The notes below the pieces were generated by a model that worked only from the letters and a program-made list of their open reading frames with translations, ran no database searches and was not told the origin of the DNA. A program made the translations under genes and the position numbers. DNA of 27,743 nucleotides from a virus. Below are positions 3,221 to 27,038 of the stretch, one piece after another. The stretch lies in IMG/VR virus record IMGVR_UViG_3300025133_000493, positions 1 through 27,743 of that record, one strand, 5' to 3'. Numbering within the stretch: position 1 is the stretch's first letter; every line of letters starts with the position of its first letter.

Positions 3221-4042
3221 ATGAACTGCTACGGAACACTGGCCGCGGTAAAGCGGATATTGGGCGAAACCAGCACCGATAATGATGCCGATATTCTGCA
3301 ATGTCTAATGGCAGCATCCAGGCGCGTGGATGGGCCATATGGTGCCAATCGCTTTTTCTATTCCAGCGAGGCCACGCTATATTTTGGTGTGCAGGATCGC
3401 TGGGAATCTGAAGTTATTATCCCAGATGTTTTGGCGGTTTCGGAAGTCACAGAGGATATAGATGGCGATGGCACATTTTCCAGAACCTGGACAGAGGGCA
3501 CACACTTTAGCTTATCGCCAGATGGTGGCTACCCAAAGCTAGGGATCGCAGCGCTACCGTGGGGTGATTATGCATTTTCATCCAAGGGCAAACGCGATAT
3601 AAAAGTGGTGGGCACTTGGGGTTTTGGTGATGGTGTGGATGGCGATCCATGGAAATCCAGCAGCACCACTGGCACTGTGGCAGACAGCGCAGGCACCACG
3701 TTTACACTAAGCGTGTCTGATGGCCTGGAGGCTGGGCAGACTATCAAGATCGGCACAGAACAGATATTTATCGAATCTGTTAGTGGCACCAGCGCCACTG
3801 TTAGGCGTGCTGTCAATGGCACCACAGGCGCAGCACACACAGCTGCTGCTATATCTACAGCGCTATACCCAGAGGATGTGATACGCACAGCACAGTGGCT
3901 GGCAGGCGAGGCATGGAAGCATAGCAAATTTGCTGGCCTGAAATCGCACAGGATTGGCGATTTTAGCGAGGCATTCGAGGCCACACCAACGGTGCAGATC
4001 CAGAACATGATCGGCAGGGTGCGCAAGGTGGTGATGCCATGA
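3221..4042 (+). CDS. Head-tail connector (gp6-like adaptor) with an inserted beta domain
   Basis: The N-terminal part (CYGTLAAVKRILGETSTDNDADILQCLMAASRRVD) and the C-terminal helix (YPEDVIRTAQWLAGEAWKHSK) match the helical bundle of HK97 gp6 / SPP1 gp15-type adaptors that sit under the portal. At 273 residues it is much longer than the usual ~100-200. The extra sequence includes a beta-rich module (about residues 150-215: TGTVADSAGTTFTLSVSDGL to TVRRAVNGTTGAAH). The same RG/RR-x-GTTGAAH signature recurs in the tail protein at 8430-9155. Overlaps the next gene by 4 bp. Confidence 0.8.
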   Translation: MNCYGTLAAVKRILGETSTDNDADILQCLMAASRRVDGPYGANRFFYSSEATLYFGVQDRWESEVIIPDVLAVSEVTEDIDGDGTFSRTWTEGTHFSLSPDGGYPKLGIAALPWGDYAFSSKGKRDIKVVGTWGFGDGVDGDPWKSSSTTGTVADSAGTTFTLSVSDGLEAGQTIKIGTEQIFIESVSGTSATVRRAVNGTTGAAHTAAAISTALYPEDVIRTAQWLAGEAWKHSKFAGLKSHRIGDFSEAFEATPTVQIQNMIGRVRKVVMP

Positions 4043-4368
4043 TCACGGGACTACTGGATCAAACATGCAGCACCAACAGGGCCACCGAATCCAAAACCAG
4101 CACTGGTGGAAACAAGCGCACATTTGCTGCCAATTTGTCTGGCGTTAAATGCAGACGGCAAAAGAGCAGTGGCACAGAGGGGCGCAGCACTGGTGGCACT
4201 GGCAGGTCTGCCATTGGCCAGCATCGATTGTGGTGCTTTTACGGCACAGACATTGTGCGCACAGACCAGGTGGTAATGGGTGGTGTGACATATGAGGTTA
4301 TAGATGTGGATCCAGATATGGGTGGCGCTGGCGAATTTATGGCACTTACCCTGCTGGAGGTAGGCTAA
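4039..4368 (+). CDS. Probable head-closure protein
   Basis: 109 residues encoded where SPP1 gp16 / HK97 gp7-type head-closure (stopper) proteins normally lie, between adaptor and gp10-like genes. The C-terminal half (WCFYGTDIVRTDQVVMGGVTYEVIDVDPDMGGAGEFMALTL) fits the small beta-barrel fold of that family, with the usual VTYEVIDVD strand. The N-terminal half is Ser/Thr/Gly-rich and poorly conserved. Start ATG overlaps the upstream stop (ATGATCA); the stop overlaps the next start by one base. Assignment rests mainly on position and length. Confidence 0.65.
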   Translation: MITGLLDQTCSTNRATESKTSTGGNKRTFAANLSGVKCRRQKSSGTEGRSTGGTGRSAIGQHRLWCFYGTDIVRTDQVVMGGVTYEVIDVDPDMGGAGEFMALTLLEVG

Positions 4369-4718
4369 TGGCTGTGTCAATTAAGGCCAGTGTACGCATG
4401 GGCCAGGATAATGTGGGGCAGGTTGTGGCCAGGGTTTCGGGATTAACCGAAAAGCAAATGGCCAAGTTTGCCATGGATGTGCGCGATAAGGCCAAAGAAA
4501 ACGCAGCTGGCCTAACGTTTGAGGATGGCACTGGCACACTGGCCAGTGGCATAGAAATGGTGGCTATTGGGCCAAAGCAGTACCGAATCCAAACCACCAG
4601 TGGCCATGCCAGCTATATAGAGCTTGGCACGCAATACATCCAGGGAAGAATGCCATTTTTGTGGCCAGCATATCGCTGGGCCAAAAACAAATTCTTTGCA
4701 TCGGTCCCGTGGGTATGA
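4368..4718 (+). CDS. HK97 gp10-like tail completion protein
   Basis: 116 residues, the usual length for the gp10-like family, which acts at the head-tail joint. The family pattern is visible: helix with MAKFAMDVRDKAKENA, then the beta segment YRIQTTSGHASYIELGTQYIQGRMPFLWPAYRWAK (the HASYIELGT...MPFLWPA core). Stop and next start overlap as ATGA at 4715-4718. Confidence 0.85.
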   Translation: MAVSIKASVRMGQDNVGQVVARVSGLTEKQMAKFAMDVRDKAKENAAGLTFEDGTGTLASGIEMVAIGPKQYRIQTTSGHASYIELGTQYIQGRMPFLWPAYRWAKNKFFASVPWV

Positions 4719-5133: not shown

Positions 5134-5676
5134 ATGGGCACCGAAGCAAACGTAATAGTGGTAAAACCGCAGGGCGTGTACTACGCTGCCGTGGCCACTG
5201 CCAGCCCCACTGCCACTGGTACGCTTGGTGGCTCTGTAAGTATGAGCGGCTGGACCGATCTGGGCTATGTCGATGGCGAAGGCGCGATCAAAATGACATT
5301 TGGCAAAGAAGTAAAGCGGGTTAGGCCAGCAGGCATGGAAGGCAATTTAAAAGGGCTTGTCACCAGCAAGATGGCTACCATTGAAGTTATGGGCATTGAG
5401 GAAATTATAGCCAATCTGGAGATCGCGCTAGGCGATGGCGTGCTGGCATCCAATGAAATACCAGATGGTGGTGCTGGCGAATTGGCCTATATTGCGCTGT
5501 GCGTAGTAACCACCAGGGCTGTATACCATTTTAAAAAGGTATCGCAGGCCGAAGAATTGGCCAAAGATGTAGACGATAACAGCGAGGCAAAAATGCCATT
5601 CAAGCTGGAAACATTCGTGGAAGCTGCTGCCACTGCTGGGGAACGCCAGTGGGTATGCATGGAGCGCACCGCGTAG
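5134..5676 (+). CDS. Major tail (tube) protein
   Basis: 180-residue protein placed between the tail terminator and the chaperone genes, where siphovirus tube proteins lie. It starts MGTEANVIVVKPQGVYYAAV and has the typical beta-sandwich pattern (WTDLGYVDGEGAIKMTFGKEVKRVRPAG, then ATIEVMGIEEIIANLEIALG), with a C-terminal KMPFKLETFVEA strand that in this family packs subunits in the hexameric ring. The chaperone gene begins one base after the stop. Confidence 0.85.
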   Translation: MGTEANVIVVKPQGVYYAAVATASPTATGTLGGSVSMSGWTDLGYVDGEGAIKMTFGKEVKRVRPAGMEGNLKGLVTSKMATIEVMGIEEIIANLEIALGDGVLASNEIPDGGAGELAYIALCVVTTRAVYHFKKVSQAEELAKDVDDNSEAKMPFKLETFVEAAATAGERQWVCMERTA

Positions 5677-14390: not shown

Positions 14391-15200
14391 ATGAACAATC
14401 CAGTGTTGCGTTTACATGATGGCTACAGGCACACATCGCCAGAGCTGCAGCCAGATGTGCGAGAGCTACAAACCCTGGTGGGTGGCGAATTGGTGGCAGA
14501 TGGCTATTTCGGGCGTGATACAGACACAGCAGTGCAGCAATACCAAGCCTGCAATGGATTGGTGCCAGATGGTATTGTGGGGCCACTAACATGGGCCAGG
14601 CTGGAAGGCGTGGAACCTGGTAAGCCAGTGCAGTTTTGGACTAGCTACAGTCCAGAGAATAGGGCACTGGCACTGGACAATAAAACGGCACAGCAATACC
14701 ACAGCAGCATTAGAGCAGCAGCGCTATATGCTGGAGTGCCAGCAGCCATTGTGGTGGCCATCGGATCTAGGGAATCACATTGGGGCAGGGCTTTGTCGCC
14801 ATCTGGGCCATACGGTACTGGTGACAGGATAAAGCGCCAGCGCCCCAGGCCATGGCGTGATGGATCGTTGCCAGACGATGGCAAAGGTTTTGGCCGTGGC
14901 ATAATGCAGATTGATTACGATGCGCACGAATTTGCACGCACTGGGCCATGGCATGTGCCAGCCAAAAACATAGAATACGCTGGCAAGGTGCTGGCACATG
15001 ATATGCTATTTTTCCAGCGCCAGGATGTGCGCGCCACCCAAGTATTGCAGCTGGCAGTGGCAGCATATAACTGTGGTGCTGGCAATGTCAGGCGCGCATA
15101 TGAAGCAGGCCGCGATGTAGACTTCTACACGTCGCACCGAGACTACAGCAAAAATGTACTGGATCGGGCTGGCTGGTTTTACGCAGCTGGATGGATATAA
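14391..15200 (+). CDS. Endolysin: peptidoglycan-binding domain plus goose-type lysozyme / lytic transglycosylase
   Basis: 269 residues, with AAGGG about 9 nt before the ATG. Residues 15-75 are a PG_binding_1 domain (LQPDVRELQTLVGG...DGYFGRDTDTAVQQYQACNG...DGIVGPLTW). From about 100 the catalytic domain has the goose-lysozyme/SLT pattern: AIVVAIGSRESHWG with the catalytic Glu at about 128, GRGIMQIDYDAHE, and VAAYNCGAGNVRRAY. It cleaves the glycan strands at the end of infection. There is no signal peptide, so it needs a holin, in line with the neighbouring membrane proteins. Confidence 0.92.
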   Translation: MNNPVLRLHDGYRHTSPELQPDVRELQTLVGGELVADGYFGRDTDTAVQQYQACNGLVPDGIVGPLTWARLEGVEPGKPVQFWTSYSPENRALALDNKTAQQYHSSIRAAALYAGVPAAIVVAIGSRESHWGRALSPSGPYGTGDRIKRQRPRPWRDGSLPDDGKGFGRGIMQIDYDAHEFARTGPWHVPAKNIEYAGKVLAHDMLFFQRQDVRATQVLQLAVAAYNCGAGNVRRAYEAGRDVDFYTSHRDYSKNVLDRAGWFYAAGWI

Positions 15201-15219
15201 ACCAAACGAGGATCGCACC

Positions 15220-15975
15220 ATGCCAAAGAACATTGCCACCAAGGCAGCCACCAAAGTGGCCAACACAGCCAAGAGCAGAACCACACAGAATGTGATAGGC
15301 GCAGGCACCACCACAGCACTATTTGTGGCTGCTGGAATGTCTTGGTTGCGGGCGAACTATCCCGATCTGGTTTGGTGGGAACCTGGCCAAGATCTGGTGG
15401 TGGGCGGCATCGCAGCTGGTGTGGTGACGGGTTTTCTATCCAGGCTGGTTAGTTTTTGGCGCAATCCAGACAAGACCAAAAGATCGGCACCAATCCAGCG
15501 CGGTTTGTTGTTTTGTGTTGGTTTGTCTGTTGTCGCATCTGGCTGCGTAGGTATGGCACCAGCTGTGCGTGGCAAAACCAAGGCCATGGTGGATTTCACG
15601 ACTAACGGCGAAGATATAACGTACAAATCAGAATTGGTGGCACCAGCTGGTGTAGATGCTGCCGAATTGGCTGCAATGTCTGCTGGCGTGGATTCGGATG
15701 GCGCGTGGCAGATTTCAGTTAGTCAAGACACAGCAGCAGACACCACCACACAGGCTGCGATGCTAACAGAGATCGGGGCATTGCAGGTGCAGGCGTACCG
15801 GGATGCATTCGGGGTGGCACTGAATACCCTGGCACCAATACTTGGCCAGTATCTGGAGGCGCAGGCCAGGGTGGCAGAAATCGAGGCCAACAAACCACCA
15901 CCAGTGCTGCCAGAAATCCAGCCAGGTAATGTGCTGGCCGTTCCTACACTGCCACCACCATGGATCAAGCGATAA
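15220..15975 (+). CDS. Multi-pass membrane protein with an internal lipobox, possible holin/spanin-type protein
   Basis: 251 residues from ATG 15220; the frame is open to 15154 inside the endolysin gene, but 15220 follows the endolysin stop. Hydrophobic segments lie at about 25-43 (VIGAGTTTALFVAAGMSWL), 59-78 (LVVGGIAAGVVTGFLSRLVS) and 94-110 (GLLFCVGLSVVASGC). The third looks like a lipoprotein signal with a lipobox ending at Cys109. The remaining 140 residues are soluble, partly coiled, and end Pro-rich (NKPPPVLPEIQP, LPPPWIKR). It may join holin-like and outer-membrane spanin-like parts, or the lipoprotein part may be made separately; this is inference. A terminator follows. Confidence 0.6.
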   Translation: MPKNIATKAATKVANTAKSRTTQNVIGAGTTTALFVAAGMSWLRANYPDLVWWEPGQDLVVGGIAAGVVTGFLSRLVSFWRNPDKTKRSAPIQRGLLFCVGLSVVASGCVGMAPAVRGKTKAMVDFTTNGEDITYKSELVAPAGVDAAELAAMSAGVDSDGAWQISVSQDTAADTTTQAAMLTEIGALQVQAYRDAFGVALNTLAPILGQYLEAQARVAEIEANKPPPVLPEIQPGNVLAVPTLPPPWIKR

Positions 15976-16578: not shown

Positions 16579-16593
16579 TTTGATGATTTTTAC

Positions 16594-16653
16594 AAGGCCC
16601 GGCGTGGCCTGGCATGGCCCGGCTTGGCATGGCCCGGCAGGGCAGGGCAAGGC
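16594..16653 (+). repeat. (NNGGC)12 pentamer tract 1
   Basis: Twelve uninterrupted 5-bp units in which the last three bases are always GGC while the first two vary (AA, CC, GT, CT, AT, TT, AG occur). It is preceded by TTTTTAC and followed by AAGGAAACAA, lies between the Xre gene and the gene at 16682, and is matched in length and flanks by the tract at 17257. Confidence 0.92.
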
Positions 16654-16681
16654 AAGGAAACAACAAAGGAGAAGAGAAAAG

Positions 16682-17248
16682 ATGATTGATCGAATCGAAT
16701 TGGAAATTGAGGGTGTGTCGCCATTATTGATGCACAACGGGGAAATGGCAGACCCATTGAACCCCATGACGCAAGAACTTAAAAAGGTAAGTTCCAAGCG
16801 AGTCAAAACGGAGTCTGATCACAGAGAAATGGCCAAACTGGAGTGGCACGCAGGAATCTATCAGCAGGAGGGTGTGGTGGTGGTGCCTGGCGTGATGCTA
16901 GACAAGACAATTATTGAAGCGGCGCGCAAGTCCCGAAAAGGCAAACAGGTGCAATCTGGCGTGATGGTGGACGGCGATCCAGCGCTGGAGTTTCCAGACA
17001 AAGGCAAATCACTTACAGCACTCTATGAAAGTGGCAGCTACACAGACCGGCGCATGGTTGTGGTGCAGAAAAACAGGATTGCACGCACGCGGCCAAAATT
17101 CAATGTTTGGAGTCTTCAATTTTCTATCCAATTCGACGATGAATTAGTTTCCAGAAGCGAGTTGGTCGATATGGTCGATCTGGCGGGGCAAACTATTGGG
17201 ATCGGTGATTACCGACCGCGATTTGGACGTTTCCAGCGGCTGGTTTGA
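16682..17248 (+). CDS. Conserved early phage protein; possible RAMP/Cas7-like fold
   Basis: 188 residues from ATG 16682, which has AAAGGAGAAG upstream; the frame stays open back through the pentamer tract to 16580, so a longer form cannot be excluded. Recognisable family features, as I recall them from phage proteins without a settled function, are IEGVSPLLMHNGE at the start, VVVVPGVMLDKTIIEAAR in the middle, DRRMVVVQKNRIARTRPKF, and the glycine-rich ending LAGQTIGIGDYRPRFGRFQ. The SPLLMHN opening and C-terminal glycine-rich loop recall RAMP (Cas7-type) RRM folds that bind single-stranded nucleic acid. That link is a guess from pattern only. Neighbouring genes are early replication/recombination genes. 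Confidence 0.75.
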   Translation: MIDRIELEIEGVSPLLMHNGEMADPLNPMTQELKKVSSKRVKTESDHREMAKLEWHAGIYQQEGVVVVPGVMLDKTIIEAARKSRKGKQVQSGVMVDGDPALEFPDKGKSLTALYESGSYTDRRMVVVQKNRIARTRPKFNVWSLQFSIQFDDELVSRSELVDMVDLAGQTIGIGDYRPRFGRFQRLV

Positions 17249-17256
17249 TTTTTTAC

Positions 17257-17316
17257 ATGGCACGGCTTGGCCAGGCGAGGCGCGGCAGGGCTTGGCAAGG
17301 CATGGCAGGGCAAGGC
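17257..17316 (+). repeat. (NNGGC)12 pentamer tract 2
   Basis: Again exactly twelve units of NNGGC, with the same flanks as tract 1 (TTTTTAC before, AAGGAAACAA after) but a different series of variable dinucleotides. It starts 9 bp after the stop of the previous gene and ends 24 bp before the ATG at 17341. Confidence 0.92.
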
Positions 17317-17340
17317 AAGGAAACAAAGAAAGGAAAAAGC

Positions 17341-17838
17341 ATGGAAAAAACTACCGCATATCCCATGGATTTTGATCAGCTAGAAAAGGGATCTGTAATT
17401 ACTGCTGAACAGTTGGAGCAAATTACCGGGTTTGATCGCAAGGAGGCTGGGTTCTCGCTGGCGGTGATGAGGTTTAGTGGCCGTGTGACCAGGGAAATGG
17501 GAGCGCGTGGAATTGATGTTGTTACGCGAGTCAAGAAAAACAAGCTGCACATTCTGGAGGATGACGAGGCCAGCACATACACAGCGGAGCGTGGCAAAAT
17601 ATTCTATCGGGGCATGTGTCGATCATTGCGGCGTATGGCGTATATTGACCAGGCTAACTTGGGCGACAAGCAGAGGAAGCGCCACGAAAGGGCTGTGCAC
17701 ATCCTTGGACACATGGTTTTGGGCGCAAGGAAGGGCAGAGGGAAAGCAATAAAAGCAATGGAGTATAAGCGCGATACACCTCGGGTTTTGGAGGGGAATT
17801 CCATGGCACATAGCGATATAAAATCGAAGGAGGATTAA
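17341..17838 (+). CDS. Early protein of unknown function
   Basis: 165 residues from ATG 17341, preceded by AAGAAAGGAAAAAGC; the frame is open upstream through pentamer tract 2 to 17245. The N-terminus (MDFDQLEKGSVITAEQLEQI, TGFDRKEAGFSLAVMRFSGR) resembles a small winged-helix-like domain, and the middle is a basic helical segment (GKIFYRGMCRSLRRMAYIDQ, KQRKRHERAVHILGHM). No catalytic motif is visible. Composition suggests nucleic-acid binding, possibly a regulator; I do not recognise the family. Confidence 0.7.
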   Translation: MEKTTAYPMDFDQLEKGSVITAEQLEQITGFDRKEAGFSLAVMRFSGRVTREMGARGIDVVTRVKKNKLHILEDDEASTYTAERGKIFYRGMCRSLRRMAYIDQANLGDKQRKRHERAVHILGHMVLGARKGRGKAIKAMEYKRDTPRVLEGNSMAHSDIKSKED

Positions 17839-18148: not shown

Positions 18149-19453
18149 ATGGGTACACCAGGATTGCACGTTACCAGCGTGCAAATAGAAAACGTCAAAC
18201 GTGTAAAAGCGTTTGCGATGCAACCAACAGCCAAAGGGCTAACCATAGTTGGTGGCAAAAACAAGCAGGGTAAAACATCTGTTTTGGATGCCATCGCATG
18301 GGCCATTGGTGGTGGGCGCAAAGCACCAAGCGAACCAAAGCACAGTGGCTCAGTGTCCGATCCTGTAATCGAGGTGGAATTGTCCAACGGCGTAAAGGTG
18401 TCACGTAAAGGCAAAAATAGCGCACTGACAGTGCTGGATCCATCTGGCCAGCGCAGTGGCCAAGCGCTGCTGGATAGCCTGGTTTCCGAATTCGCATTGG
18501 ATCTGCCAAAGTTTATGGAGGCCACCAGCAAAGAGAAGGCGCGCACACTGCTGGGACTGCTGGGAATTGGTGACGATCTGGAGCGTTTGGCACTGGATGA
18601 AAAACGCCTATACGACGAACGGCACCAGCTGGGCGTTATGTGCACCAGCAAAACCAAACATGCCGAAGAATTGCCAGAGCATCCAAACATGGGACTGGAG
18701 CCAGTAAGCGTTTCCGATTTAATCCAGCAGCAGCAAACCATCTTGGCCACCAATGGTGCAAACCAAGCCAAACGAAACAGGGCCGCAGAGTTGGCGCAGC
18801 AATACGATCAGGCCAACCAGGAAGTGGCCAGGCTGGATGGACTATTGCAGGCAGCAATGGAGGCACGCAAGGCAATTAGCACTGATTGCACGATAGCCAG
18901 CCAGACAGCTGCCGAATTGCACGATGGCTGCACCGATGAAATTGAACAGCAGATCGCCGCGTTTGAAACCACCAACAGCCAAGTGGCAGCAAACCAGGCC
19001 AAGGCAGCTGCACAAGACGAGGCCACGCAGTTAGCCAGCCAGGTGGCTCTAAAGGATGATGCGCTGGAAGCTGTTAGGGCAGAGCGTTTGGCCATCCTGG
19101 ATAATGCAGAATTGCCATTGGCTGGCCTATCTGTGCAGGATGCCGAATTGGTCTACAATGGGACCAAGTGGGATGGGATGAGTGGCGCAGACCAGCTGCG
19201 GGTTGGCGTGGCCATCGTTCGAGCATTGAAACCGGAATGCAGTTTTGTGCTGCTGGATAAGCTGGAGCAGATGGACACAGACACACTGGCAGAATTTGGC
19301 CAGTGGCTGGAGGCAGAAGGGTTGCAGTGTATTGCCACCAGGGTATCCACCGGCGAAGAGTGCAGCATTATTATCGAGGATGGGTTGCCAGTGGGGAAAA
19401 CGTATGGCGAAATTGTGGCCAACGTTAAAACAGATGCTGGGCTGGAATTTTAA
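18149..19453 (+). CDS. RecF/SMC-like AAA ATPase (AAA_23 type)
   Basis: 434 residues. ATP-binding features of the RecF/Rad50/SMC class are clear: Walker A GGKNKQGKTS (35-44) after the typical ENVKRVKAFAM start, an ABC-like signature MSGADQLRVGVAI, and Walker B SFVLLDKLEQMD. Between them lies a coiled-coil-forming region (AAELAQQYDQANQEVARLDG through about residue 310). It probably works in phage recombination or DNA end processing with neighbouring nuclease and RecA-like proteins. RBS GAGAGG. Confidence 0.85.
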   Translation: MGTPGLHVTSVQIENVKRVKAFAMQPTAKGLTIVGGKNKQGKTSVLDAIAWAIGGGRKAPSEPKHSGSVSDPVIEVELSNGVKVSRKGKNSALTVLDPSGQRSGQALLDSLVSEFALDLPKFMEATSKEKARTLLGLLGIGDDLERLALDEKRLYDERHQLGVMCTSKTKHAEELPEHPNMGLEPVSVSDLIQQQQTILATNGANQAKRNRAAELAQQYDQANQEVARLDGLLQAAMEARKAISTDCTIASQTAAELHDGCTDEIEQQIAAFETTNSQVAANQAKAAAQDEATQLASQVALKDDALEAVRAERLAILDNAELPLAGLSVQDAELVYNGTKWDGMSGADQLRVGVAIVRALKPECSFVLLDKLEQMDTDTLAEFGQWLEAEGLQCIATRVSTGEECSIIIEDGLPVGKTYGEIVANVKTDAGLEF

Positions 19454-19473
19454 CCAGGAGAAAGGATCGACAA

Positions 19474-19644
19474 TTGAACAAGAACAGCAAAAAGAAGGCA
19501 CGCAAAAACAGGGCCAGCCAGAAAATGGAAAGCCAGCGGGTGCGAGACAGCCACAAGGCGTGGCACAAACTGACACCAGACCAGAAACAGGCCGAAATGA
19601 AACAGGCCGCGTATTGGAGGAACCTATACCATGCTGAAAATTAA
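19474..19644 (+). CDS. Small basic protein between two ATPase genes
   Basis: 56-residue ORF from TTG 19474 with AGGAGAAAGG upstream, overlapping the next gene by 14 bp. The N-terminal half is highly basic (NKNSKKKARKNRASQKMESQ), followed by KAWHKLTPDQKQAEMKQAAY, typical of a small helical phage protein. Real translation is likely because it fills a gap with a good ribosome-binding site, but the start is rare and function is unknown. Confidence 0.5.
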   Translation: MNKNSKKKARKNRASQKMESQRVRDSHKAWHKLTPDQKQAEMKQAAYWRNLYHAEN

Positions 19645-20659
19645 CACAGGCAAACAGTTGGGGCCATGTAAAGGCTTGATCTATGGGCCAGAGGGGGTGG
19701 GCAAATCCTGGCTGGCTGCCAATCTGCCAGGTGCGCTATTTATCGATGTGGAATCTGGCACTGGCGAAATGGACGTGGCGCGCACCGAGACACCAGAAAG
19801 CTGGGCACATCTGCTGCAAATTGTGGGCCAGCTGGCTGCGAATCCGATGGGATACCAGACACTGGTAATTGATACGGCAGACTGGGCAGAGCGTTTGGCC
19901 ATCCAGCAGGTATGCGCCACCAATGGGTTTTCCTCACTGGGAGGCCAAAACGATTTCGGCAAAAGCTACAATGAACTGGCCGAAATCTGGGCCAAGTTTC
20001 TAAACCAGCTACAGGCCGATCTTATCGCACCAGGCAAAATGCATGTGGTATTCCTGGCACACAGCACCACCAAAAAACACGAACTGCCAGAGGAAGAAGG
20101 AGCATATGATCGGTATATGCTTAAGCTGGAAAAGAAAACCGCGCCACTGCTGATGGAGTGGTGCAGCCTGGTGCTGTTTACCAACTACAAAACTATGGTA
20201 AGCGTAGACACCAAGACCAAGAAAGCAAAAGGCCAAGGTGGCACTAGGCGAGTTATGTATAGCCAGCACACTGCTGCATACGATGCCAAAAACAGATTCC
20301 AGCTGCCAGCAGAAATGGACATGGAATATAAGCACATTGCGCCATGTTTCGCCAACCTGAAATCGCAGCCAGCAGCGCCAGCGCCAGCAGCTGCACCAAA
20401 GCCAGAAGCAGCGTTATATGAAGCAGTACCAGTGGCACCAGAGCCAGCCAGCAGTGGGCTGTCACAGCCTAAGCGCGCACTGCAAAAAATGATGAGCAGC
20501 GCTGGCGTATCTTATGAGGATGTATTGGCCGTGGTCGTGGCGCGTGGCCAATTTCCAGCAGGCACACCACTGGAGGCACTGCCAGACGATTTTGTAGAAG
20601 GCTGGATTTCCCATAACTGGCCAAAGGTGCTGGAGTTTATCAACAAGCAGCGCCAGTAA
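19631..20659 (+). CDS. RecA-like AAA ATPase (AAA_24, Sak4-like) of the recombination module
   Basis: 342 residues. Walker A GPEGVGKS (19-26) and Walker B YQTLVIDTADW (76-85), with the FIDVESGTGEMD and VFLAHSTTKKHE segments (the latter sensor-like), match the phage AAA_24 group that includes Sak4-type single-strand annealing/recombinase ATPases. The C-terminal 110 residues hold an Ala/Pro linker (AAPAPAAAPKPEA) and a small helical domain ending FINKQRQ. It is followed by a DUF669 SSB-like gene, the usual partner. Confidence 0.85.
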   Translation: MLKINTGKQLGPCKGLIYGPEGVGKSWLAANLPGALFIDVESGTGEMDVARTETPESWAHLLQIVGQLAANPMGYQTLVIDTADWAERLAIQQVCATNGFSSLGGQNDFGKSYNELAEIWAKFLNQLQADLIAPGKMHVVFLAHSTTKKHELPEEEGAYDRYMLKLEKKTAPLLMEWCSLVLFTNYKTMVSVDTKTKKAKGQGGTRRVMYSQHTAAYDAKNRFQLPAEMDMEYKHIAPCFANLKSQPAAPAPAAAPKPEAALYEAVPVAPEPASSGLSQPKRALQKMMSSAGVSYEDVLAVVVARGQFPAGTPLEALPDDFVEGWISHNWPKVLEFINKQRQ

Positions 20660-20706
20660 CATAAGTGGCGCACAACATAACACAAACCAACAGAAAAGAG
20701 GACAGT

Positions 20707-21210
20707 ATGCCAGATCATGCATTTGGATGGGACAAGACAGGGATCGACAATCCCAAAATGGGTGGCGATTTCCAACTGCTGCCAAAGGGTGAATACAAAT
20801 TTACCGTGACCAAGATGGAGCGAGGCCGCTATGAGGGTGGGCCAGGTGCGAAGCTGGATCCATGTGACGTGGCGATCTTGCACATGGATGTGGATGCAGG
20901 CGAATTGGGCGTGGTGCCACACATACACAAGCTGCATCTACACACCAAAGTGGAAGGCATGATCACGGAGTTTTTTATCGCTGTGGGACTGCATGATCCA
21001 GAATCCAGCCACCTGGCACTGCGTTGGGGTGATCTCGTTACCAGGCAGGGTGTGGTGAAAATGGATCACCGCACATACGATGGCAAACAATACAACGATG
21101 CCAAAAAATTCCGAGCCATCAAAAACGGCACACCAGCACCAGCGCCAGCACCAGCACCAGCGCCAGTAGCAGCACCACCAGCGGCAGACAATGGCGAATT
21201 GCCATTCTAG
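20707..21210 (+). CDS. DUF669-type protein with SSB-like acidic tail
   Basis: 167 residues from ATG 20707, with GAGGA upstream; the frame is open to 20665 but that part is not conserved-looking. The core (PKGEYKFTVTKMERGRYEGG, PGAKLDPCDVAILHMDVDAG, ITEFFIAVGLHDPES) fits the DUF669 family of phage single-strand DNA binding proteins. A Pro/Ala linker (about residues 146-160) ends in DNGELPF, similar to the C-terminal tip of SSB proteins (D-D-D-I-P-F) that recruits partner proteins. Confidence 0.8.
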   Translation: MPDHAFGWDKTGIDNPKMGGDFQLLPKGEYKFTVTKMERGRYEGGPGAKLDPCDVAILHMDVDAGELGVVPHIHKLHLHTKVEGMITEFFIAVGLHDPESSHLALRWGDLVTRQGVVKMDHRTYDGKQYNDAKKFRAIKNGTPAPAPAPAPAPVAAPPAADNGELPF

Positions 21211-21443
21211 TGGTGCCAACTAACCTATCCGACTGGATCCAGGGCTTGGTGCCTGAAAAGCTGCCAATCTCTCTGTTCCGAATTCCAGGCAGCTGTGCCA
21301 CAGTCCTGGATCCAGTTTTATGGTTAGAGCAATTACAGCTGGATGCAGCAGACCCAAACCACCCAAGGGCAAAGACTGGCGCACTACAGAGTGATTTAGC
21401 CAGCCTGTATGCCATCGTAAACAGAGAGGATCTCAAATGGTAA
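21210..21443 (+). CDS. Small early protein of unknown function
   Basis: 77 residues from GTG 21210, sharing one base with the upstream stop and overlapping the helicase start by 7 bp. The sequence (MVPTNLSDWIQGLVPEKLPI, FRIPGSCATVLDPVLWLEQL) ends in RAKTGALQSDLASLYAIVNR, a pattern seen in small phage replication-region proteins. No enzyme motif. Function unknown. Confidence 0.65.
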   Translation: MVPTNLSDWIQGLVPEKLPISLFRIPGSCATVLDPVLWLEQLQLDAADPNHPRAKTGALQSDLASLYAIVNREDLKW

Positions 21444-23050
21444 CATTTGCAGTTAGGCCATACCAGGAGGCCAGCAAGGCAGCAGTGGAGCGCGAATGGT
21501 TGGAAGGCAGATCGCGCACACTGCTGGTACTGCCAACTGGCTGTGGAAAAACAATTGTATTTTGCCAGATAACAGAGGATCTGGTACGTATGGGAAAGCG
21601 GGTTTTGATCCTGGCACATCGAGGCGAACTACTGGATCAGGCCGCACAGAAAATGGAGGCAGCCACTGGGCTGCGATGCAGTGTAGAGAAGGCAGATCAA
21701 ACTTGTCTGGGCGAATGGTTTATGGTGGTGGTGGGATCAGTCCAAACCCTAATGCGCCAAACCAGGTTGGATAAATTCGATCCTGGCCACTTCGATGCCA
21801 TTATTGTGGATGAGGCACACCACTGTTTATCTGATAGCTATCAGCGGGTTTTATCCTATTTTGATCAGGCTGACGTGCTGGGCGTAACAGCCACACCAGA
21901 TCGTGGCGATATGCGGGATCTGGGCGAATATTTCGACAGCCTGGCATATCAATACAGCATGGCCACTGCCATCCAGGATGGCTATTTGTGCCCAATCAAG
22001 GCACTGCACATACCGCTGGAAATCGATCTATCGCAGGTGAAACAGCAAAGTGGCGATTTCCAGTTGGCAGCACTGGGCAGTGCGCTGGATCCATACCTGG
22101 AGCAAATAGCCACCGAAATGGTGCAGCACTGCACCGGCAGGAAAACAGTGGTATTTTTGCCACTAATAGCCACCAGCCAGAAATTCTGCGATATTCTGAA
22201 ATCCAAAGGATTAACAGCCAGGGAAATCAACGGCGAAAGCCAAGACAGAGCAGAAGTGCTGGCCGATTTCGATGCAGGCCATTTTGATGTGCTGTGTAAT
22301 TCGATGCTACTCACTGAGGGTTGGGACTGTCCAACTGTGGATTGTGTGGTGGTGTTACGGCCAACCAAGATCAGATCGCTCTATTGCCAGATGGTGGGCC
22401 GCGGTACCAGGCTGGCACCAGGCAAAGACCATCTATTGCTGCTGGATTTCCTATGGCACACAGAGCGCCACCTATTATGCCACCCAGCCACCATAGTGGC
22501 AGAATCACAGGAAGTGGCAGCACAGATCACGGCAAACATAGCAGCAGAGCCAAACGTGCCTGTGGACCTAATGGAGGCAGACGAAGTGGCGCAGGGCGAT
22601 TGTGTGGCAGAACGCGAAAGCAAGCTGGCCGAAAAACTGCGCGAAATGAAAAACCGAAAACGCAAGCTGGTGGATCCGTTACAGTTTGAAATTTCGATCC
22701 AGGCCGAAGATTTAAGCGGATTCGTGCCAGCGTTTGGCTGGGAAGCTGGGCCAGTCCAGGAGCAGCAGCAGCAGGAATTAGAGAAGGCTGGCATATACGC
22801 AGACGAAATAGAAACCGCTGGGAAGGCAGACAAGATACTGGAGCGCATAAACCAGCGCAGGGCCGAAAACCTAAGCACACCAAAGCAGATCAGGTTCCTG
22901 GAAAAGCGAGGGTTTCAGCATGTAGGCCAATGGCCATTTGGCCAGGCGCGCTCTATGATTGATCAGATAGCAGGCAATGGCTGGCGCACACCAAAGCATA
23001 TACAGCCAGCCAGCTACAAACCAGAGAAGGCAGAAACGACCAATGGCTAA
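21437..23050 (+). CDS. Superfamily 2 DNA/RNA helicase
   Basis: 537 residues with the SF2 (DEAH, UvsW/ResIII-like) motif set: motif I PTGCGKT (33-39), Ia LILAHRGELLDQ, II IIVDEAHH (DEAH at 125-128), III GVTATPDR, V LLTEGWDCPTVDCV and VI YCQMVGRGTRLAPG. Residues beyond about 400 form an extra region with LREMKNRKRKLVDPLQFEIS and a C-terminal LSTPKQIRFLEKRGFQHVGQ repeat-like helical domain. It probably unwinds forks or D-loops in phage replication and recombination. The nuclease start overlaps by 8 bp. Confidence 0.92.
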   Translation: MVTFAVRPYQEASKAAVEREWLEGRSRTLLVLPTGCGKTIVFCQITEDLVRMGKRVLILAHRGELLDQAAQKMEAATGLRCSVEKADQTCLGEWFMVVVGSVQTLMRQTRLDKFDPGHFDAIIVDEAHHCLSDSYQRVLSYFDQADVLGVTATPDRGDMRDLGEYFDSLAYQYSMATAIQDGYLCPIKALHIPLEIDLSQVKQQSGDFQLAALGSALDPYLEQIATEMVQHCTGRKTVVFLPLIATSQKFCDILKSKGLTAREINGESQDRAEVLADFDAGHFDVLCNSMLLTEGWDCPTVDCVVVLRPTKIRSLYCQMVGRGTRLAPGKDHLLLLDFLWHTERHLLCHPATIVAESQEVAAQITANIAAEPNVPVDLMEADEVAQGDCVAERESKLAEKLREMKNRKRKLVDPLQFEISIQAEDLSGFVPAFGWEAGPVQEQQQQELEKAGIYADEIETAGKADKILERINQRRAENLSTPKQIRFLEKRGFQHVGQWPFGQARSMIDQIAGNGWRTPKHIQPASYKPEKAETTNG

Positions 23051-23594
23051 TATAAAGAGCTTACCCACTGTCTATGGCGGCATACGATACAGATCCAGGC
23101 TGGAAGCACGCTGGGCCGTTTTCCTGGACTATATGGACATAGATTTTATCTACGAACCAGAAGGCTACACGGATGGCAAGGTGTGCTATTTGCCAGATTT
23201 CTGGCTGCCAGCGCACGAGCTATTTATTGAAATAAAACCTGGGCCGCTAAGTGATGCGGAGGAAGCAAAAGCAAAAATGGTGGTGGAGGGCACAGGGCAC
23301 AGGCTGCTGGCGCTAATAGGTTTTCCAATGGAGCCAATACAATTTATGGCCGATATGAAACGCACCAATTTATACGGACGGTTCGAGCGCGATGGCAAAA
23401 CGCGCTACAGAATGTCGTATTGTTCTTATTTTGTGCAATGTGGCTGTAGTCGTGTCGATATAAGGGATTATTCAGTGGAACCAGATTGGTTAACGTGTGA
23501 CTGTGATGATTTTCGGCCAAACTTTTTAAACCTTAATATGGCTGCACAAAAGGCCAGATCATTCCAATTTGTTGGTGGGGTGGCCAATGGCTGA
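23043..23594 (+). CDS. PD-(D/E)XK-fold nuclease
   Basis: 183 residues from ATG 23043, which overlaps the helicase stop; the frame is open to 22977. The fold is shown by YRSRLEARWAVFLDYMDIDF (Glu21 in the first helix), CYLPDFWLPAHELFIEIKPG with Asp52 and the E63-x-K65 pair, and YEPEGY between them. This TnsA/RecB-like arrangement is common in phage endonucleases. A Cys-containing C-terminal part (YFVQCGCSRVDI, LTCDCDDF) could bind a metal. Likely a structure-specific or recombination nuclease working with the adjacent helicase. Confidence 0.8.
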   Translation: MANIKSLPTVYGGIRYRSRLEARWAVFLDYMDIDFIYEPEGYTDGKVCYLPDFWLPAHELFIEIKPGPLSDAEEAKAKMVVEGTGHRLLALIGFPMEPIQFMADMKRTNLYGRFERDGKTRYRMSYCSYFVQCGCSRVDIRDYSVEPDWLTCDCDDFRPNFLNLNMAAQKARSFQFVGGVANG

Positions 23595-25992
23595 ATTACC
23601 AGAGCTATTAGAGGCCATCGATCCATCCAGGGTTAGCTATGAAGAGTGGACACAGATCGGAATGGCCACAATCGATAATGGTGGCAGTGTGGCAGACTGG
23701 GATCAGTGGTCTGCGAGAGATCCAGAGCGATACCAGGCTGGGCAGTGTGAAAGGAAAGCCAAATCATTTACCGGCAGCGCCACACCAGTTGGCCTGGGCA
23801 CCATCGCACAGATCGCCAAACGCCATGGATGGATTCCAGCACAGCACAGCGCAGGCCATGCATTGGATTGGAACGCCACCATAGACACCACCAAGCTGCT
23901 ATCTTTAGAAGTGGAGGATCCTGGCTGGGTGGAACCAATCGATGTGGTGCCACCAGACAGCTGGGACCCAATACAGCAGCTTATAAAGTATCTAAACACT
24001 CTGTTTTCCTCTGAGGAATACGTGGGATATGTAACCGAGTCATACGAATCTGATGGCCGATCACTGCCAAAGCGTGGCAGTTATTCCAGGACATGTGGCG
24101 AACTAATCCAGAACCTCGAGAAGTATGGCCAGATAGATATGGCACTGGGCACACCTGATCCAGATGTAGGGGCGTGGATCCGATTTAATCCACTGGATGG
24201 AAAAGGCGTAAAGGATACCAACGTTACTGCGCACCGCTATGCGCTCATTGAATCAGACACACTGCCAATTGATCGGCAGGCTGGCATCTACAAAGCCATG
24301 GAATTACCCATTGCAGCGCTGGTGCACAGTGGTGGCAAATCACTGCACGCCATTGTGCGCATCGATGCAGCCAGCAAAGAAGAATACCGGCAGCGGGTTA
24401 ATTACCTGCACAAAGTGTGCGCTGCCAACCATCTGGAAATAGATACACAAAACAAAAATCCATCCAGGTTATCCAGGATGCCAGGCGTTATGCGCAAGGG
24501 CCAGAAACAGTTTCTGGTGGATGTAAACCAGGGCCATAGCACTTGGGACGAGTGGGTGGAATATGTCGAAGATAAAAACGACAACCTGCCACCATTTACA
24601 CAGTTTGCGGATATATTCCACGATCTACCACCACTGGCCACCCCGTTAATTGATGGCATTCTGCGCGAGGGGCACAAAATGCTGTTGGCTGGGCCATCCA
24701 AAGCTGGCAAATCATTTATGCTGCTACAGCTGGCTGTGGCCGTGGCAGAGGGCAAAAGCTGGCTGGGCTGGCAGTGCAGACAGGGCCGCGTGCTATACGT
24801 CAACCTGGAAGTGGATGCATCCAGCTGCGCGCATCGAATCCGCGATCTGTATGACAAACGCGGGTGGGCACCAGATGCCACAAAAAACCTGGATGTGTGG
24901 AATCTGCGAGGAAAAGCAGCGCCATTGGATGTGCTGGCACCAAAACTAATAAACAGGGCAAAGGATAAGCAATACAAGGTAATTATCATCGATCCAATTT
25001 ACAAGGTAATTACAGGCGATGAAAACGCAGCAGATAAGATGGCGCACTTTTGCAACCAATTCGACAAAATTTGTGCAGAATTAGAATGCGCCGTAGTCTA
25101 CTGCCACCACCACAGCAAAGGCGCACAAGGTGCCAAGGAGGCCAAAGACAGGGCCAGTGGCAGTGGCGTATTTGCACGGGATCCAGATGCGCAACTGGAT
25201 GTGGTGCAATTGATGGTGCCAGAGGATGCCAGGAAAGCGATGGCAGATAGGGTTATGTGCCAGGCCATCGTGGCAGCAGCAGAGCGCCACACACCAGACT
25301 GGAGCGATAAACTGGGCCAAGATGATGTGCTGGTACTGGAAAAGGTGACAGAGGCAGCCAGGGCACTGCTGGGCAGCAGCCACCCAGCCTGGCAGCAGAT
25401 AAACCAGCTGCGCACCGAATTGGGATACACCACAGGCTGGCGCGTGGAATTAACACTGCGAGAATTCGCACCACAGCCACCCATAGCGTTCTGGTTTCGC
25501 CATCCAATACACACCACAGAGGGCGCAGACTTCCTGGCCAGTTGTAAAGCCAATGGCGAAGTACCACCCTGGGAATTAGAGCGCCAGGAGCGCCAGGAAA
25601 AGAAAAAGAAAGATTTCGACAAGATCGCCAGAGATATTGGATTCCACATTACTGGTGATCGCATGGATCTGGATGAATTGGCTGGGCTGCTGGGCCAGAC
25701 ACCGCGGCAGGTAAAGGGGTGGGTGAAGGATTCCAGCACGCACGAAAATGTGGCATTTCCAGACAAGCGGGAAGGCATAACCGTTTGCTTAAAAGGCCAA
25801 AAGCAGCTGGTTTTGAATGATTACTATTTCCGAAGGCTGGCTGATAGTGATGGCAAGTTAACTGTGGAATCCATCAAAAAAGACACCGGCAGGAAAACAG
25901 GCAGCACCATATTGGATTGGTTCCGTGGCGATCTGGCCAGCCTGTATACCATCGATGGCAATACCATTACCCAAAACAGAAAGGATCAATAA
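23587..25992 (+). CDS. Primase-helicase: AEP-type primase fused to a RepA/DnaB-like ATPase
   Basis: 801 residues from ATG 23587, overlapping the previous stop. Residues 10-85 look like a PriCT_2-type domain (SYEEWTQIGMA, WDQWS). About 190-315 carries archaeo-eukaryotic primase motifs: YALIESD (I), GGKSLHAIV (II, S-x-H) and LEIDTQNKNPSRLSRMPGV (III). About 355-550 is a RepA/AAA_25 helicase: Walker A GPSKAGKS (369-376), Walker B KVIIIDPIY (464-472) and CAVVYCHHHSKGA. The C-terminal 180 residues hold a charged linker and winged-helix-like segments. It is the likely replisome core. Confidence 0.88.
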   Translation: MAELPELLEAIDPSRVSYEEWTQIGMATIDNGGSVADWDQWSARDPERYQAGQCERKAKSFTGSATPVGLGTIAQIAKRHGWIPAQHSAGHALDWNATIDTTKLLSLEVEDPGWVEPIDVVPPDSWDPIQQLIKYLNTLFSSEEYVGYVTESYESDGRSLPKRGSYSRTCGELIQNLEKYGQIDMALGTPDPDVGAWIRFNPLDGKGVKDTNVTAHRYALIESDTLPIDRQAGIYKAMELPIAALVHSGGKSLHAIVRIDAASKEEYRQRVNYLHKVCAANHLEIDTQNKNPSRLSRMPGVMRKGQKQFLVDVNQGHSTWDEWVEYVEDKNDNLPPFTQFADIFHDLPPLATPLIDGILREGHKMLLAGPSKAGKSFMLLQLAVAVAEGKSWLGWQCRQGRVLYVNLEVDASSCAHRIRDLYDKRGWAPDATKNLDVWNLRGKAAPLDVLAPKLINRAKDKQYKVIIIDPIYKVITGDENAADKMAHFCNQFDKICAELECAVVYCHHHSKGAQGAKEAKDRASGSGVFARDPDAQLDVVQLMVPEDARKAMADRVMCQAIVAAAERHTPDWSDKLGQDDVLVLEKVTEAARALLGSSHPAWQQINQLRTELGYTTGWRVELTLREFAPQPPIAFWFRHPIHTTEGADFLASCKANGEVPPWELERQERQEKKKKDFDKIARDIGFHITGDRMDLDELAGLLGQTPRQVKGWVKDSSTHENVAFPDKREGITVCLKGQKQLVLNDYYFRRLADSDGKLTVESIKKDTGRKTGSTILDWFRGDLASLYTIDGNTITQNRKDQ

Positions 25993-27038
25993 TGTGGACA
26001 TGTTGCACTTATTTGCAGGCGCAGGGGGGGGGATCCTTGGATCCAACCTTGATGGCCACAGAACTATCGGCGCTGTCGAGATCGAAGAGTATCCCAGAAA
26101 AATACTACTGGCCCGGCAGCTTGACGGATCATTACCTGGTTTCCCTATTTGGAACGACGTTACCACGTTCCGAAGCGACAACCCAGACACAGCCAATTAC
26201 ATCGCCAGACTGCGCGCACACAAAAACTTGTGCATCGCGGGCGGGTTCCCATGCCAAGACATTAGCGCCGCTGGAAAAGGCGCAGGAATCACAGGAGAGC
26301 GTAGCGGGCTATGGTCTGAGTTTTCCCGCATCATCAGCGAGATACGACCGCGACACGTCTTCCTGGAGAATTCACCCTTGCTTGTTTCCAGAGGACTCGA
26401 TGTCGTGCTTAGTGACCTTGCCGAAATGGGGTACCATGCGGAGTGGGGAATTGTCGGAGCGCACCACGCCGGAGGAAGTCACAAACGGGATCGGATCTGG
26501 CTCTTGGCCCACGCCAATGTGTGATGGGGGTTTCAAATCAGAGGGGCAGGTGGATAAGTTAGCCCAAAACAATATTACATTTGGCGAGTTTCGTGGCATG
26601 TGTTATCGAGCCAGCGAAACACACAAAAAAGCAGCCTGGCCTACACCATGCGCTAGGGATTGGAAGGATACCCGGGGTATGGCGCACAGCGCTACCAATC
26701 CAGATGGCACACATAGAGATAGAACCGATTTGTTACCCACGCGAATATACTCCCAAACGTCCAAAGAGGTGTCTGGCACATTAAACCCCGATTGGGTAGA
26801 GTGGCTAATGGGTTGGCCCGTGGGCTGGACACAGCTGGAGCCACTGCCAGTGGCAGATTATCCAGCAGTTGGCCAGTGGAGCGAGGACCCTGCAATATTA
26901 GGAGCGCTTGACAGGGTAACACCACCACAGCCAGCCAGGAGGCCCAGGCTAAAGTGTATTGGCAATGGCCAAGTGCCAGCTGCTGCCAGCCTGGCGTGGA
27001 ACGTGCTAAATAGAATGGCCATGGAAAGCGCACCATGA
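25992..27038 (+). CDS. Methyltransferase partner / C-terminal half, overlapping in another frame
   Basis: This frame is open from inside the previous gene; the first start beside the ribosome-binding site is ATG 25992, giving 348 residues, though the true start may lie further in. Residues from about 74 onward (CAHTKTCASRAG, GLSFPASSARYDRDTSSWRI, LVTLPKWGTMRSGELSERTT, SGSWPTPMCDGG) match methyltransferase-associated phage proteins I recall, while the same bases encode motifs IV-VIII in the other frame. Past 26524 it carries LNPDWVEWLMGWPVGWT and ends RLKCIGNGQVPAAASLAWNV, equivalent to motif X. It probably supplies target recognition and completes the enzyme. The stop overlaps the RusA start (ATGA). 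Confidence 0.7.
   Translation: MWTCCTYLQAQGGGSLDPTLMATELSALSRSKSIPEKYYWPGSLTDHYLVSLFGTTLPRSEATTQTQPITSPDCAHTKTCASRAGSHAKTLAPLEKAQESQESVAGYGLSFPASSARYDRDTSSWRIHPCLFPEDSMSCLVTLPKWGTMRSGELSERTTPEEVTNGIGSGSWPTPMCDGGFKSEGQVDKLAQNNITFGEFRGMCYRASETHKKAAWPTPCARDWKDTRGMAHSATNPDGTHRDRTDLLPTRIYSQTSKEVSGTLNPDWVEWLMGWPVGWTQLEPLPVADYPAVGQWSEDPAILGALDRVTPPQPARRPRLKCIGNGQVPAAASLAWNVLNRMAMESAP
25994..26524 (+). CDS. DNA cytosine-5 methyltransferase, motifs I-VIII
   Basis: 176 residues from GTG 25994 (ATG 26000 is also possible), preceded by AAGGA. C5-methyltransferase motifs in order: I LHLFAGAGGG (SAM binding), IV GGFPCQDIS with catalytic Cys87, VI HVFLENS (E125-N126) and VIII HHAGGSHKRDRIWLLAHA, after which the frame stops. 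The target recognition region and motifs IX-X are missing; motif X-like sequence lies in the +1 frame (next entry). The gene may be a natural split enzyme like M.AquI, or may need a frameshift. A G9 run at 26024-26032 encodes the Gly triplet of motif I. Confidence 0.85.
   Translation: MDMLHLFAGAGGGILGSNLDGHRTIGAVEIEEYPRKILLARQLDGSLPGFPIWNDVTTFRSDNPDTANYIARLRAHKNLCIAGGFPCQDISAAGKGAGITGERSGLWSEFSRIISEIRPRHVFLENSPLLVSRGLDVVLSDLAEMGYHAEWGIVGAHHAGGSHKRDRIWLLAHANV
26024..26032 (+). repeat. G9 homopolymer in the methyltransferase gene
   Basis: Nine consecutive G encode Gly-Gly-Gly of motif I. Such runs change length easily. Losing one G would join the methyltransferase start to the partner frame; gaining one would join ATG 25992 to the methyltransferase frame. 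Confidence 0.9.

Follow-up and report, generated by a model that had tools for sequence, protein, structure and literature searches.

What are two runs of (NNGGC)12 doing in the gaps on either side of a small phage gene? The DNA considered in this analysis, hereafter the window, is the whole of a 27,743-nt stretch, the IMG/VR virus record IMGVR_UViG_3300025133_000493, which carries phage portal, head and tail genes. An initial annotation, made from the letters, had described TTTTTAC-(NNGGC)12-AAGGAAACAA as occurring twice, in each case 24–28 bp before a start codon, and this description proved exact: the positions are those given in Table 1, all 12 units are perfect in both copies, TTTTTAC stands on the 5' side of each and AAGGAAACAA on the 3' side, and the distances from tract end to ATG are 28 nt (ATG at 16682) and 24 nt (ATG at 17341). 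The gaps between genes that the tracts occupy, counted from stop codon to next ATG, are about 100 nt long (16579–16681 and 17249–17340). A probe of five NNGGC units, allowed at most one mismatch, found 18 matches in the window, all inside the two tracts and all on the plus strand, as compared to a mean of 0.02 matches in 100 dinucleotide shuffles, placing the tracts far beyond chance. The same letters may be read as YNNGG, which gives 13 units per tract (C-AA-GG to C-AA-GG before AAACAA). The sequence AAGGAAACAA is common to both tracts but short, and the region that would form the tail has no stable predicted fold. A search of Rfam gave no match, and promoter and terminator scans did no better than on shuffles.

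Table 1. Features of the locus in the window. NN letters are the two variable bases of successive units.
Feature	Position	Strand	Basis
Cro/CI-type helix-turn-helix gene, 73 aa	16357..16578	+	Pfam HTH_3, E 2e-14
Predicted guide region of vrRNA 1, (NNGGC)12; NN letters AA CC GT CT AT CC TT AT CC AG AG AA, then AA (in the following AAGGA)	16594..16653	+	sequence; YNNGG vrRNA format of PMC13142463
Probable 3' tail of vrRNA 1, beginning AAGGAAACAA	16654..16681	+	position suggested by AAGGAAACAA, common to both tracts
vipr, RAMP-family effector protein, 188 aa	16682..17248	+	PDB 36pp_D, phrog_4652, AF2 fold
Predicted guide region of vrRNA 2, (NNGGC)12; NN letters AT AC TT CA GA GC AG TT AA AT AG AA, then AA	17257..17316	+	sequence; NN-only differences from L026
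Probable 3' tail of vrRNA 2	17317..17340	+	AAGGAAACAA, common to tract 1
Probable vap (Vipr accessory protein), 165 aa	17341..17838	+	homologues after vipr in L075 and L037

Initially, the gene flanked by the two tracts had been taken for one of two consecutive early genes. It is not anonymous. Its product matches PDB entry 36pp_D, "SUSP1 Vipr protein", with an E-value of 9.4e-27 over residues 5–185, and also matches phrog_4652. Relatives are present in 130 phage records, every one of them less than 60% identical to the protein of the window. The AF2 model, built with 25 sequences, has a pLDDT of 96, and its best structural matches are RAMP subunits of CRISPR systems, mainly Csm3/Cas7 (Z 10.8 over 150 residues, rmsd 3.7). 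A glycine-rich stretch near the C-terminus, GIGDYRPRFGRF, is conserved, with G173, R178 and G182 invariant in the 25 sequences. A tree of 31 Vipr proteins places the protein of the window outside a supported group that holds those of E. coli and Pseudomonas phages, and its nearest rows, L027 and L075, are joined to it without strong support. Homology and predicted fold together indicate that the gene almost certainly encodes the Vipr effector of a VIPR system.

VIPR is a viral RNA-guided, DNA-targeting system related to CRISPR (bioRxiv 2026.04.26.720920, PMC13142463), described in 2026 as an ancestor-like relative with which viruses turn RNA guides on one another. It comprises a phage RAMP protein, Vipr, and guide RNAs (vrRNAs) of 9–16 YNNGG repeats, with GGY constant and NN hypervariable; the NN letters pair with double-stranded DNA, one target base being skipped per unit, and the complex represses transcription, its natural targets being satellites and prophages (PMC13142463). 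Seven types have been published (PMC13142463), of which type II contains SUSP1 and the Pseudomonas fulva clade. VIPR occurs mostly in viruses and proviruses, and the window is itself a virus record. As a positive control, the tract finder was applied to phage SUSP1, where it recovered an 11-unit GGY tract at the vrRNA site upstream of vipr. I take it as very probable that each of the two tracts in the window is the guide region of a vrRNA in a phage VIPR system, with the gene between them encoding the effector. The earlier suggestion of an RNA element in the leader was close to right, in that the tracts match vrRNA guides and form part of the leaders of vipr and of a probable vap gene; the role most probably to be assigned to them is that of a guide.

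The association between tract and Vipr was assessed in IMG/VR loci chosen solely by the presence of (NNGGC)8 or more, with no protein criterion (n = 80), among which only one near-identical record, L026, closely resembles the window. The Vipr profile was made from seven proteins, that of the window and six from phage records, and 171 viral loci fetched for unrelated patterns served as controls. The profile matched in 56 of the 80 tract-selected loci and in 0 of the 171 controls. A search for NNGGC runs of eight or more units and their adjoining genes had been proposed initially, and this simple DNA pattern suffices to find VIPR loci in viral metagenomes with a yield of about 70%. The pattern is diagnostic in viruses and not in high-GC chromosomes, since only 3 of 80 bacterial loci fetched by a longer tract, many of them from GC-rich actinomycetes, contain Vipr. 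A Vipr relative was found in 13 of 398 Pseudomonadota genomes. In the reverse direction, a tract of at least six units was present in 6 of 10 bacterial loci found by the Vipr protein alone (0/171 in the controls).

The number of unbroken units in relatives ranges from 6 to 42 (mostly 6–16), and twelve is therefore one value among many: the count of exactly twelve holds for both tracts of the window and fails as a rule. A test of whether unit number is constrained had been suggested; the number differs from one lineage to another, and known vrRNAs likewise span a range (9–16, PMC13142463). Random unit numbers in relatives had been named as grounds for refutation, but such a refutation would mislead, because known vrRNAs also vary in this respect.

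A natural comparison is provided by L026 (source metagenome 3300006789), another record, 99.1% identical to the window over 7.2 kb and differing from it by less than 1% around the locus. Tract 1 and its tail are identical in the two, and vipr shows one difference in 567 nt. Tract 2, however, differs at 14 of 60 positions, all of them NN letters and none of them among the 36 GGC sites, with no changes in the 8 nt before the tract and the 24 nt after it. Judged from the aligned letters, the difference between the two versions of guide 2 would be explained most simply by loss of a TT unit, change of AG to CG, and gain of an AA unit, the total remaining at 12. If the guide is considered in terms of codons whose wobble base is the one skipped, one codon would be lost and the change would be synonymous if the codon is that for arginine. 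This is the appearance that would be expected of a changing guide on a fixed scaffold, and not proof of function. One might go further and suppose that a guide follows changes in its target by being altered one unit at a time, with its length kept constant and no adaptation machinery involved, and that guides in leaders couple synthesis of the effector to occupancy, a speculative extension that I consider rather improbable. Since only one guide has changed in a near-identical natural sibling, the turnover of guides is directly testable.

Four other accounts of the tracts may be weighed against that of guide regions. The one that survives best, though the chance that it is correct seems slight, is that the tracts act in the leader RNA solely to regulate vipr and vap, guiding nothing. 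The sites bound by the ring protein TRAP are likewise triplets with 2-nt spacers, and the tracts of the window do lie 24–28 nt before start codons, with 3' ends that run into the ribosome-binding region (the putative tail of tract 1 overlaps that of vipr, the tail of tract 2 that of the next gene). A regulatory leader offers no reason for hypervariable NN letters, however, and the arrangement at other loci does not suit it: among 35 viral loci with a strong Vipr match, 91 of the 130 tracts on the vipr strand are downstream of vipr, and many relatives have several tracts there, away from any start codon. Furthermore, the Vipr system that has been solved uses the same format for DNA targeting (PMC13142463).

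Even less credible is an array of DNA sites, spaced every half helical turn, for a regulator of the phage. The constant GGC with its 5-bp period and the helix-turn-helix gene just upstream would fit such an array. An operator should work on either strand, yet in the same 35 loci 130 of 131 tracts are on the vipr strand and a single one is opposite (127 tracts are within 1.5 kb of vipr). The tracts accompany a RAMP protein, which in its solved relative binds an RNA guide, and the fast change of NN between near-identical phages would be needless in operators. The earlier proposal of a protein-binding array is not supported.

The frames of both downstream genes are indeed open across the tracts, as initially noted, and it could be supposed that the tracts are translated, as N-terminal extensions or as repeat-coding sequence. 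Openness weighs little, because in a forward NNGGC run the sole possible stop is TAG, which arises from NN = TA in one frame out of three. A stop of this type is present in 52 of 185 tracts of related loci, and the open frames are therefore no evidence of translation; stops in frame are tolerated in relatives, and Vipr homologues begin at the ATG and not within the tract. The observation stands, the hint of an extension is not supported, and I regard translation as highly improbable. Equally improbable is a hotspot of recombination between gene cassettes, for although similar tracts at two gene junctions could misalign, the tracts flank one specific gene family rather than arbitrary cassettes, and in L026 the NN letters have changed while the flanks are unchanged, and the tracts are bordered by the same genes, themselves almost unaltered.

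Returning to the guide regions, the genes around them may now be considered. The helix-turn-helix gene ends 15 nt before tract 1 and perhaps belongs to the same operon. For the 165-aa gene that follows tract 2, homologues stand immediately downstream of vipr in L075 (E 1e-28) and L037 (E 9e-12), and L075 exhibits the same order of tract, vipr, tract and vap homologue. A profile of post-vipr genes from annotated phages matches the protein weakly (15.7 bits). Its AF2 model, from three sequences, has a pLDDT of 78 and consists of an N-terminal part of two helices and two strands, resembling a winged helix, and two long helices; no confident fold match to this model was found in PDB. From sequence and gene order, the gene is probably vap, with a weak link to known vap1. 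The order of the locus is then helix-turn-helix gene, vrRNA 1, vipr, vrRNA 2, probable vap.

Elsewhere in the window, the gene at 15154–15975 carries the lipobox-like sequence LSVVASGC, which would be in keeping with a Gram-negative host. A replication module (18149–25992), containing an SMC-like ATPase, a Sak4-like annealing protein, a helicase and a primase-helicase, has its closest counterparts in Firmicutes phages, with identity reaching about 65%. A C5 cytosine methylase is apparently split between two frames at 25917–27038: residues like those of a methylase N-terminus appear in 25925–26524, and the frame 25917–27038 continues with a methylase-like C-terminal end. Either the gene is broken or there is a sequencing error.

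Under the one-base skip, the gapped target sequences of the guides would be AANCCNGTNCTNATNCCNTTNATNCCNAGNAGNAA or ATNACNTTNCANGANGCNAGNTTNAANATNAGNAA. Patterns built by this rule were sought in IMG/VR and in 398 Pseudomonadota genomes, collections that need not contain the target, and no convincing match was found. With 17–18 fixed bases, IMG/VR gave no exact match for units 2–10 of tract 1 or for a core of tract 2 that covers both variants of the guide. Shorter target patterns found 78, at least 119, and 13 stretches, whose extensions showed no excess over what preselection and chance provide. The best stretch matches at 21 of 24 letters, in phage terminase-like open reading frames of L343, L355 and L452, where the skipped base is that of the wobble position. 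It is no more than a weak lead, because a 14-base segment of that guide had been used to fetch these loci. With units 1–8 of tract 2 as the pattern, 11 matches were obtained, of which the best (23/26) falls outside a reading frame. The 398 Pseudomonadota genomes contained no target for either guide at up to three mismatches. When 185 guides of related loci were compared with 3.9 Mb of fetched DNA, 18 matches with E < 0.5 were found at skip 1, as against 9, 4 and 4 at skips 0, 2 and 3, and nothing at E < 0.005 at any of these skips; the scan is no independent test of the skip rule, because the DNA set is biased by the loci fetched for skip 1.

Other loci with tracts show variations in form. Mycobacterium phage LittleE (L258) has tracts at 3676–3735, 3821–3870, 5167–5196 and 5266–5325, followed by 3' tails that contain a hairpin like the T-arm of tRNA. 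Such hairpins have a GTTCRANTC loop and a perfect stem, sit inside a short acceptor-like stem, and were seen in the tails of several vrRNA-like tracts, in L258, L255, L033, L018 and L121. The loop motif occurs within 100 nt of 10 of 432 tracts, as compared to about 1.8 expected, and ARAGORN reported no tRNA in L258, L255 or L033. The tail could be a tRNA-like processing signal for release of the guide in these lineages. Long arrays are found in L022 (1993–2351), L074 (2901–3318, reverse-strand coordinates) and L084 (6296–6472), where runs of 5–12 units are interrupted by 4-nt breaks (GTTC or AGGC) that shift the 5-nt register by one; these may be the overlapping "staggered arrays" of PMC13142463. 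In L016 (3079–3624, reverse-strand coordinates) and L034 (2143–2427) guides are arrayed in tandem, with a conserved insert, some tens of nucleotides long and of inverted-repeat character, between successive units. Finally, an alphaproteobacterial MAG contig (L207) has two vipr homologues within 4 kb (895–1767 and 3765–4442).

In the most likely scheme, the tracts of the window would be made into RNA by processing of the operon transcript on which vipr and the probable vap are also encoded. Vipr subunits would assemble along the guide RNA, with protein holding the constant GGC of each unit, and the NN letters would pair with double-stranded DNA, one target base being skipped in this lineage as well (mechanism of SUSP1 VIPR, PMC13142463). 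The complex would then keep a gene of a competing phage or satellite from being transcribed. If the guides do come from the operon transcript, Vipr bound to its own leader could influence translation, since the presumed tail and the ribosome-binding region overlap.

How does the locus compare with known systems? TRAP-binding leader RNAs also present, within a leader, triplets with two variable bases between them. In TRAP leaders, however, there are about 11 GAG/UAG triplets with spacers of 2–3 nt, whereas the triplets of the window are all GGC, the spacers are hypervariable, and the partner is a RAMP protein. To the RAMP proteins of class 1 CRISPR (Csm3/Cas7) the likeness lies in the predicted fold (Z about 10–11) and in the conserved glycine-rich stretch at the C-terminus, but identity is only 10–14%, a tandem-repeat scan of the window found no CRISPR-like array of constant repeats and unique spacers, and the guide would be a gapped pentamer code rather than a contiguous spacer. 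The closest comparison is with the type II VIPR of SUSP1 and P. fulva: a phage-borne Vipr RAMP protein of about 20 kDa, GGY/NN guide tracts within the range of 9–16 units, guides on both sides of vipr, and one small gene after it. The Vipr of the window differs in being only about one third identical and in lying outside the SUSP1/P. fulva-type group in the tree. Its units are nearly all GGC rather than GGT, a guide lies also between vipr and the accessory gene, there are only two guides, and the presumed tail is short, A-rich and overlaps the ribosome-binding region, in contrast to the structured pseudoknot of SUSP1. The locus is almost certainly a new, compact member of VIPR, that is to say of a kind of system already known. 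As an example it is unusually clean and minimal, and its uncultivated phage belongs to neither of the two most-studied clades.
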